The notes beneath the pieces were generated by a model that worked only from the letters and a program-made list of their open reading frames with translations, was not told where the DNA came from and did not search any database. Positions 46,586-50,290 of a stretch of DNA of 64,000 nucleotides are shown piece by piece. This DNA comes from an uncultured Bacteroidota bacterium (GTDB lineage: Bacteria; Bacteroidota; Bacteroidia; Flavobacteriales; Flavobacteriaceae), in assembly GCA_902525795.1 (NCBI GenBank), contig CABZIT010000003.1:1-64000 (forward strand), read 5' to 3'. The position numbers were made by a program, and so were the translations under genes. How positions within the stretch are numbered: position 1 is the stretch's first letter; each line of letters begins with the position of its first letter.

Positions 46586-47959
46586 ATGCCATTAATAAAG
46601 TCCATTTCAGGTATTCGTGGTACAATCGGAGATATCGAAGGTGAAAATTTAACCAGTAAAGACATAGTAAAGTTTACATCTGCATTTGTTACAATTTTAG
46701 TAAAAAATAATAAAATTAAAAGCAGAAAAATTGTTGTGGGTAGAGATGCAAGAATTTCAGGGCCAATGGTTGAAAAAATTGTTATAGATACTTTAATCAA
46801 TTTAGGTTTAGATGTGATTTGCTTGGGTCTTTCAACAACACCTACAGTTGAAATTGCAGTAACAGAGGAAAAGGCTGATGGTGGTATTATTATAACTGCC
46901 AGTCATAACCCAATAAATTGGAATGCATTGAAGTTGTTAAATGAAAAGGGAGAATTTATTAATGAGAATGAAGGTAAAGAATTAATAAAAGTATCTGAAT
47001 CTCAGGAATTTATAAAAGTTCAAGAAAAAAATGGAAATATTTTTTTTAAAAATAATTATATAAGTATACATATTGATAAAATATTAGAACTTAACAGTAT
47101 TGATGTAGATTTAATTAAGAAAAAACGATTTAAAATAGTTGTTGATGCTGTTAATTCAACTGGAGGGATTGCAATTCCCATGCTTTTAGAAAAACTAAAT
47201 GTAGATTGTGTCAAGATTTTTTGTGATCCTACAGGTGAGTTTCCACATAATCCAGAACCTCTTCCAGAAAATATAACAGAACTTTCCAAATCTGTTGTTA
47301 AAAACAAAGCTGATTTAGGAATTATTACTGACCCTGATGTCGATAGACTGGCATTTGTATGTGAAGATGGGGTAGTATTTGGTGAAGAGTATACATTAGT
47401 AGCTTGTGCAGATTATTACTTGTCTTTGCACAAAGGGTCAACCGTAAGTAATTTGAGTTCATCTAGAGCACTTAGGGACGTAACAAAAACACACGATTGT
47501 GAGCACTTTTTTAGCGCTGTTGGCGAAGTAAATGTTGTAGAATTAATGAAAAGAAAGAACGCCGTCATTGGTGGTGAAGGGAATGGTGGAGTAATTTTAC
47601 CTGAACTTCACTATGGAAGAGACGCATTGGTAGGCATCGCACTTTTTTTAAGTCATTTAGCAAAACAAAATGTAAAAGTATCGAAATTAAGAAAATCTTA
47701 TCCAAATTATTTCATAAGTAAAAGAAAGATTATGATTGATGAAAATATTGATTTTGATCAATTGATAAAATCAATTTCAAATAGATACACAAATGAAATG
47801 ATTTCAAATATTGACGGCTTAAAAATTGATTTCAAGAATTCATGGGTTCAGCTTAGAAAAAGTAATACAGAACCCATAATTAGAGTCTATGCTGAAGCTA
47901 AAACAAAAGAAAAAGCTGAAGAATTATCAAAAAAATTTCTTGAAGAAATTAGAGGCTAG
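46586..47959 (+). CDS. glmM: Phosphoglucosamine mutase (phosphohexomutase)
   Basis: SISGIRGTIGDIEGENLTSKDIVKF, IITASHNPINWNALKLLN, ITDPDVDRLAFV, GGEGNGGVILPELHYGRDAL. Confidence 0.9.
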   Translation: MPLIKSISGIRGTIGDIEGENLTSKDIVKFTSAFVTILVKNNKIKSRKIVVGRDARISGPMVEKIVIDTLINLGLDVICLGLSTTPTVEIAVTEEKADGGIIITASHNPINWNALKLLNEKGEFINENEGKELIKVSESQEFIKVQEKNGNIFFKNNYISIHIDKILELNSIDVDLIKKKRFKIVVDAVNSTGGIAIPMLLEKLNVDCVKIFCDPTGEFPHNPEPLPENITELSKSVVKNKADLGIITDPDVDRLAFVCEDGVVFGEEYTLVACADYYLSLHKGSTVSNLSSSRALRDVTKTHDCEHFFSAVGEVNVVELMKRKNAVIGGEGNGGVILPELHYGRDALVGIALFLSHLAKQNVKVSKLRKSYPNYFISKRKIMIDENIDFDQLIKSISNRYTNEMISNIDGLKIDFKNSWVQLRKSNTEPIIRVYAEAKTKEKAEELSKKFLEEIRG

Positions 47960-48831
47960 TTGTCTTTTTTGTGCTTAAATCTTCTATGAGTCCAAGTATA
48001 AAATTCAGGTTTTCTATGGATTTGCTCCTCAACCATTTTGATAAAAATATCTGTTAATTTAAAATTTTCAAAGTTTTTTGGATCATACGTAATTTCCTTA
48101 AAAGTAGCCTCATAAAATCCTCTTTTAATTTTAATCACATCCATAAATAATATTGGCATATTGTATTTTTTTGCAATAATTTCTGCTCCTGTGTGAATTG
48201 GAACTGTAATATTTAAAAATTTATTCCAATACGATGCTTTTTTCTTACTTGGTGATTGATCAGAAGCAAAGCCATACAAATGTAATTTTTTCCCCTTTGA
48301 TTGCTTAGCAATTTTTCTGTAGGTTTCATTTGTTGTAATCAGTTCACAGTCGTATTTAGATCTAATTTTTTTTACCCATCTGTTTAAATATGGATTAGCG
48401 ATTTTTTTGTAAACTGCATAAATTTTAAATCTAGTAACTCTGTCCATGATAAAACACCATTCCCATGTACAGTAGTGACTACCCATAATAATAAGATTTT
48501 TTCCTGAATCATAAACTTTCTCTAGAACTTCTGGATTTGTAAAATGAAATCTTTTTTTTATTTCATCCTCATTAATATTCATTGACTTAAAGGATTCTAA
48601 AAAAACATCACTAAGATTTCTATAATATTTTTTTTCAATTAATTGAAGATCTTTTTTAGTTTTTTCTGGAAAAACTAATTTTAAATTATTTCTTACAACT
48701 TTCTTTCTATATCCAATAACATAATATAATACGTAATAAAAAAAATCAGAAACTAAATATAATTGTTTGAAGTTGAGTCTAGAAACAAACCAAATTAAGG
48801 GGTAAATAAATAGGAATACTAATAAATGCAT
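47956..48831 (-). CDS. Lysophospholipid/lipid A acyltransferase (LpxL/HtrB family)
   Basis: MGSHYCTWEWCF (HX4E-like), YGFASDQSPSKKKASYWNKFLNITVPIHTGAEIIAKKYNMPI, EFYTWTHRRFKHK. Confidence 0.88.
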   Translation of the reverse strand: MHLLVFLFIYPLIWFVSRLNFKQLYLVSDFFYYVLYYVIGYRKKVVRNNLKLVFPEKTKKDLQLIEKKYYRNLSDVFLESFKSMNINEDEIKKRFHFTNPEVLEKVYDSGKNLIIMGSHYCTWEWCFIMDRVTRFKIYAVYKKIANPYLNRWVKKIRSKYDCELITTNETYRKIAKQSKGKKLHLYGFASDQSPSKKKASYWNKFLNITVPIHTGAEIIAKKYNMPILFMDVIKIKRGFYEATFKEITYDPKNFENFKLTDIFIKMVEEQIHRKPEFYTWTHRRFKHKKDN

Positions 48832-48846
48832 TAAAATTCTTTATAA

Positions 48847-48854
48847 CAAATATA
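48847..48854 (-). promoter_or_regulatory. -7 box (TATATTTG on minus strand) for the lpxL-like gene
   Basis: caaatata on plus strand, 15 nt before the ATG; one arm of a palindrome with 48858-48865. Confidence 0.55.
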
Positions 48855-48857
48855 TAG

Positions 48858-48865
48858 TATATTTG
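48858..48865 (+). promoter_or_regulatory. -7 box (TATATTTG) for mnmE
   Basis: Matches TAnnTTTG, 39 nt before the mnmE start; reverse complement of 48847-48854. Confidence 0.55.
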
Positions 48866-48904
48866 GCATCAAAAATTATTTATTTTATTTAACATTTTTT
48901 AAAA

Positions 48905-50290
48905 ATGATTAAAACTGATAATATAGTTGCTATAGCTTCTCCTCCTGGTTTGGGAGCTATTTCCTTAATTAGAATTTCAGGTAATGATTGTATAAATCAA
49001 ATTGATAATATTTTTTATGGATTTGATAAAATAAAATTATCAGATCAAGAATCTCATAAACTACAACTAGGATATATTAAGGATGGAGATCAGATCATAG
49101 ATAAGGTTTTAGTTACCGTTTTTAGAAATCCTAAATCCTACACAGGTGAAGATTTAGTTGAAATATCTTGCCATGGAAGTGTTTATATTCAAGAAAAGAT
49201 ATTACAAACTATTTTGAATTATAACTGCCGAATAGCTGATCCCGGTGAATTTACTCTAAGATCATTTTTAAATGGAAAAATGGATCTTTCTGAGGCTGAG
49301 GCAGTGGCAGATTTAATTGCAAGTAATACCAAAGCTTCACATAAATTGGCTTTAAGTCAGATGAGAGGAGGTTTTAAAAATGATATTAATAAATTAAGAG
49401 AAGAGTTAGTAAATTTCGCCTCCTTGATTGAGCTTGAACTAGATTTTTCTCAAGAGGATGTAGAGTTTGCAAACCTTAATAAATTAAATGATTTGGTCTC
49501 AACTATAGAAATAAAATTAACTGATCTTGTTAAATCTTTTAAAATTGGGAATGTCATAAAAAACGGTTTGCCAATTGTAATAATCGGAAAACCAAATAGT
49601 GGTAAATCTACTCTATTAAACTGTTTACTGAATGAAGAAAAAGCTATAGTTAGCTCAATTCCTGGAACTACACGAGACTTTATTGAGGATCAAATTAATA
49701 TAAATGGCATTAAATGTAGGTTTATTGATACAGCTGGCATTAGAAAAACAGAAGATAAAATTGAAAATCTAGGAATTAAAAAAACCTATGAGAAAATTAA
49801 AGAGGCAGAGATTATTTTGTACTTAATTGATAAATCTGTTTTAAATTATAAAAATATTGACAATTATTTAAGAGAAATTGTTAAAATAAAAAAAGATTTT
49901 GAGGATAAAGAAATTATAGTGCTGATAAATAAATGTGATATTACGACAAAAATTTTAGATGATAATTTAGTGTCATTTTCAGCTATACAAATAAGTGCTA
50001 AGCAAGGATTAAATATCGACAAATTAATTGAAAGAATATCAAATTACATGTCAAGGCTCAATATTGATTCGCATAATGTCATTATTACAAATGCCCGGCA
50101 TCTAGATCTTCTTTCAAAAACCTTAAATGAAATAAAAAAAATCAAATTATCAATAAAACAAAACATCTCTTCAGATTTGTTGTCAATTGACTTAAAACAA
50201 GCTTCTTACTTTCTTGGTGAACTAACTGGTGAGATATCCAATGATGAACTATTAGGAAATATATTTTCTAAGTTTTGTATCGGTAAGTAA
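48905..50290 (+). CDS. mnmE: tRNA uridine-5-carboxymethylaminomethyl(34) synthesis GTPase
   Basis: DNIVAIASPPGLGAISLIRISG, VVIIGKPNSGKSTLLNCLLNEEKAIVSSIPGTTRDFIED, C-terminal FSKFCIGK. Confidence 0.97.
   Translation: MIKTDNIVAIASPPGLGAISLIRISGNDCINQIDNIFYGFDKIKLSDQESHKLQLGYIKDGDQIIDKVLVTVFRNPKSYTGEDLVEISCHGSVYIQEKILQTILNYNCRIADPGEFTLRSFLNGKMDLSEAEAVADLIASNTKASHKLALSQMRGGFKNDINKLREELVNFASLIELELDFSQEDVEFANLNKLNDLVSTIEIKLTDLVKSFKIGNVIKNGLPIVIIGKPNSGKSTLLNCLLNEEKAIVSSIPGTTRDFIEDQININGIKCRFIDTAGIRKTEDKIENLGIKKTYEKIKEAEIILYLIDKSVLNYKNIDNYLREIVKIKKDFEDKEIIVLINKCDITTKILDDNLVSFSAIQISAKQGLNIDKLIERISNYMSRLNIDSHNVIITNARHLDLLSKTLNEIKKIKLSIKQNISSDLLSIDLKQASYFLGELTGEISNDELLGNIFSKFCIGK

Follow-up and report, generated by a model that had tools for sequence, protein, structure and literature searches.

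Introduction

Bidirectional promoters are well characterised for -10 elements of the sigma-70 type. In E. coli and other prokaryotes, Warman, Grainger and colleagues described near-symmetrical core promoter DNA that lies between divergent genes and seats RNA polymerase both ways (PMC12825309, PMC10268837). Opposing polymerases cannot bind such a promoter together, and competition between them counts only when one direction is strong. The two directions share one -10 element, their activity has been measured, and their start sites lie 7-25 bp apart, mostly 18.

Primary-sigma promoters of Bacteroidota are built around a -7 box, TAnnTTTG or TAHHTTTG (PMC6847099, PMC9723704, PMC7366714). The published sites are described singly; back-to-back pairs of boxes have no description in these three papers, and the terms "bidirectional" and "divergent promoter" are missing from the text of PMC9723704.

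The element between lpxL and mnmE that we describe here would resemble the E. coli promoters in being near-symmetrical core promoter DNA between divergent genes, and its 3-nt spacing suggests that simultaneous seating is likewise sterically excluded. However, it appears to consist of two whole -7 boxes of another sigma class that have no bases in common, and in lacking a shared element it would fall outside the definition of those promoters. Its predicted starts are 28 bp apart, out of the described range, and its activity, measured in the E. coli cases, is here deduced from sequence. With the Bacteroidota primary-sigma promoters it shares the match of its arms, its leader lengths and its positional enrichment, whereas its boxes are paired back to back.

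The palindrome and its two genes

We analysed a window, the whole stretch of 64,000 nt, from a genome of 1.08 Mb (46 contigs, 57% complete). Its genus, represented by 21 genomes in the collection, comprises Flavobacteriaceae-like bacteria with small genomes, and the named relatives found for it are marine Flavobacteriaceae. Between an lpxL-like gene (-) and mnmE (+), positions 48847-48865 read CAAATATA-TAG-TATATTTG, a perfect inverted repeat of 19 bases with 8-bp arms. TATATTTG is found on both strands, each copy oriented to its own gene. The palindrome with two TAnnTTTG arms facing these genes is thus confirmed as the preliminary description gave it, with gene identities from Pfam and NCBIfam; the left gene is named lpxL-like only, because it scores under the cut-offs of specific LpxL models.

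Table 1 Features of the lpxL-mnmE region, in window coordinates.
Feature	Position	Strand	Basis
lpxL/htrB-like lipid A acyltransferase, left divergent gene (ATG at 48831)	47956..48831	-	PF03279 (Lip_A_acyltrans), E 5.7e-28
Predicted lpxL start, leader 11 nt	48842	-	F. johnsoniae box-to-start spacing (PMC6847099)
Putative -7 box TATATTTG toward lpxL	48847..48854	-	Sequence; box type in 85/101 family genomes
Spacer TAG, 3 nt	48855..48857	.	Sequence
Putative -7 box TATATTTG toward mnmE (ancestrally rhomboid)	48858..48865	+	Sequence; forward arm in 35/101 family genomes
Predicted mnmE start, leader 35 nt	48870	+	F. johnsoniae box-to-start spacing (PMC6847099)
mnmE, tRNA modification GTPase (ATG at 48905)	48905..50290	+	NCBIfam NF003661, TIGR00450, over cut-off

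Box signal in the source genome

The source genome shows a positional enrichment of TAHHTTTG ahead of its genes. In a 464-kb sample, made up of the window and 400 kb of other stretches and holding 173 upstream regions, it occurs 41 times 5-45 nt before start codons, compared with 12 times in reverse orientation, 12 and 5 times as scrambled forms and twice with G in the two free positions, all in the same regions. This enrichment matches the F. johnsoniae -7 consensus, TAHHTTTG at -12 to -5 (PMC6847099), and a start-site study of F. psychrophilum (PMC9723704).

Both arms fit TAHHTTTG, with no G in the free positions, and end 15 and 39 nt before their ATG codons, an ordinary distance in a sample where boxes mostly lie at 3-46 nt. 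Published spacing predicts a box-to-start distance of 4-5 nt, which would place the two starts one base off the 48841 and 48871 proposed in the preliminary description. The predicted leaders are of ordinary length beside the published average of 33 in F. johnsoniae and median of 24 in F. psychrophilum. Reading the sequence by eye, we found no clear -33 TTTG element at 17-23 nt spacing on either side; since the -33 element is weak in Flavobacterium (PMC6847099), this is not decisive.

Neither the frequency nor the closeness of the boxes is evidence by itself. The window is not enriched in TAnnTTTG (106 observed, 119.8 expected), and the arrangement CAAANNTA-N0-10-TANNTTTG is expected 0.49 times per window, with at least one pair in 40 of 100 window shuffles. 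DNA of 29% G+C is rich in inverted repeats of such length: the window holds 62 of 8 bp with short loops, eight of them with a 3-nt spacer, against 36.9 in Markov sequences. Two boxes placed independently in 73 bp, at distances taken from the source genome, are separated by 0-6 nt in roughly 10% of draws. Among the 44 divergent regions of the 464-kb sample, lpxL-mnmE is the only one with back-to-back boxes at most 12 nt apart.

Conservation of the palindrome

Both arms are intact in 13 of the 14 genus genomes that have the locus, and all 16 arm positions are invariant in these 13; the spacer reads TAT or TGT in the other palindrome-bearing genomes. Invariant columns number 17 of 19 in the palindrome versus 10 of 42 in the flanks, a contrast that is descriptive because the genomes are related. 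As the palindrome is kept in place across genomes, it is more than chance. A palindrome both unconserved and at chance frequency would have told against the preliminary description; its frequency is within chance in the shuffles, but it is conserved. Genome compaction, which that description had offered as a simpler account, explains the closeness in part.

About 22 further genera among the sampled Flavobacteriaceae carry a similar palindrome next to lpxL. The spacer at this same locus has 3 nt in some genera and 2 nt in several others, a variation that suits two separate boxes. The lpxL-side box is far more widespread in the family than the forward arm (Table 1); since about two thirds of the family genomes are missing the latter, not every genome requires it. 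The forward arm shows at least 15 changes on the LpxL tree, with palindromes recurring in separate branches.

Where a genus lacks the forward arm, TAATTTGA often occupies the arm's position and TAGATTTG often occurs near the lpxL start, at an offset of 10-17 (upstream regions of the L090, L108 and L115 type). We considered TAGATTTG near lpxL as a replacement for the forward arm and rejected it as evidence: the association has a Fisher p of 7e-6 outside the genus, but a sign test on the LpxL tree gives a median p of 0.625, and the motif also goes against the no-G rule of PMC6847099.

The rhomboid partner and its loss

The usual order in the genus is lpxL, a divergent rhomboid protease gene (PF01694) and then mnmE, with the palindrome between lpxL and the rhomboid gene; almost all relatives have a rhomboid protease as the forward gene. 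In a simple motif test, the lpxL relatives sampled from other families showed no rhomboid neighbour. In the source genome and in another genome of the genus, G019, lpxL adjoins mnmE directly on one contig, so the rhomboid gene is missing at the locus regardless of assembly completeness. Rhomboid matches lie on another contig of the source genome, and none were found in G019.

The source genome retains the forward arm and, as the rhomboid gene is absent there, we propose that mnmE uses the rhomboid promoter. G019 retains the lpxL arm exactly and has lost the forward arm, with another box, TATCTTTG, 29 nt before mnmE. Such a pattern would be expected of two separable promoter boxes but not of a symmetric operator. 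The suggestion that lipid A acylation is coupled to tRNA modification finds no support, because the ancestral partner is the rhomboid gene; mnmE is the first gene only where that gene has been lost.

A probable bidirectional promoter and its alternatives

We consider that the palindrome probably represents two back-to-back -7 boxes of the sigma-ABfr (TAHHTTTG) class, which together make up a compact bidirectional promoter whose rhomboid side mnmE has inherited. The TAHHTTTG enrichment, the conservation and G019 make two divergent promoters at one spot the best-supported part of the preliminary description; functional coupling of the genes does not share this support. RNA polymerase seated one way would start near 48842 and transcribe lpxL, and seated the other way would start near 48870 and transcribe mnmE. 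Relative to the opposite promoter each arm covers roughly -16 to -23, a region reported to be A/T-rich in F. johnsoniae (PMC6847099), and it may serve that promoter as A/T-rich upstream DNA. Given the size of the polymerase, occupancy in the two directions would overlap at a spacing of 3 nt; such mutual exclusion need not matter, because there is little competition at basal strength in E. coli (PMC12825309). The element would have been inherited from the divergent lpxL-rhomboid pair of the Flavobacteriaceae, with mnmE taking over a promoter in the source genome.

It is unlikely that promoter activity is confined to the lpxL box, with the forward arm arising incidentally from A/T-rich DNA and compaction and mnmE starting elsewhere. 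The lpxL box does occur in many more genomes than the forward arm (85 and 35 of 101), and closeness in 73 bp is cheap, as the random placements show. However, the forward arm is invariant in 13 genus genomes in which the flanks vary, palindromes recur in separate branches of the LpxL tree, and there is no other TAnnTTTG between lpxL and mnmE in the window.

An operator for a dimeric transcription factor, regulating one or both genes, would account for the perfect symmetry and for the two free positions, which read TA in each arm and are invariant beyond what the -7 consensus demands and of which the bidirectional promoter gives no account. We nevertheless hold an operator to be quite improbable, as a fixed dimer would poorly tolerate a spacer that varies between 2 and 3 nt from genus to genus, and G019 has one arm broken and the other exact. 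A degenerate form of the palindrome with a 3-nt spacer has 34 matches in the genus versus 10 in the control, of which 13 are at the lpxL locus; the others, part of whose copies were inspected, are a recurrent coding match in glutamine synthetase (in the copies examined) and about eight at control level. We therefore rejected a palindrome regulon in the genus, there being nothing past the lpxL locus and the recurrent coding match. A DNA or RNA hairpin, acting as terminator or cruciform, is very improbable: an 8-bp stem with a 3-nt loop could form, but the stem has at most two G-C pairs, both predicted starts lie downstream of the repeat, and the fold of the 71-nt region is not better than that of its shuffles (z -1.09; 27 of 200 as good).

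If the bidirectional promoter is real, this widely kept arrangement would show that an asymmetrical box can give rise to the economy known from sigma-70-type promoters, and in a phylum that uses another primary sigma factor. The natural variants of the lpxL-rhomboid locus, with one arm, both arms or an altered spacer, are a ready set for tests of polymerase competition.

Close box pairs elsewhere in the family

Across 61 family genomes, pairs of boxes with a 2-3-nt spacer number 179, compared with 102 in a reversed-string control that is itself imperfect; at least 10 of the 179 are the lpxL locus, lpxL status being known for all but 27 of the genomes. Spacers of 12-13 nt (140 vs 102) and boxes sharing TA (650 vs 532) exceed the control as well. 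Since all arrangements are raised, with spacers of 2-3 nt the most enriched, part of the excess is general. About half of 22 inspected loci, one per genome, lie in divergent intergenic regions, a figure that stands without matched control loci.

A wider class of close back-to-back promoters is possible. We suggest only tentatively, and with some doubt, that Flavobacteriaceae have a class of abutting TAHHTTTG boxes with a 2-3-nt spacer, in which each box would supply its partner with an A/T-rich upstream element and competition between polymerases would set the transcript ratio, lpxL-rhomboid being the most widely kept example. The gldB-nadE region was rejected as a second example: the palindrome of one genome (G007, L082) is not kept in the genus, where the forward box is mostly degraded. 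At the same region (L082; L290-L306), an lpxL-like CAAATATA box toward gldB is kept in the genus.

In several genera (L314, L322, L317) a close back-to-back pair precedes a gene whose product starts MEENFKMVAKTLFGFE and looks like a THUMP-type rRNA methyltransferase; this locus is a candidate second conserved example. Palindromes of the CAAAATTAGAATATATTTG type recur in the genus within the start of a glnA-like glutamine synthetase gene (the source genome, G006 and G016; L013, L065, L076). They are a coding coincidence in which a conserved peptide is encoded, and they inflate pattern counts.
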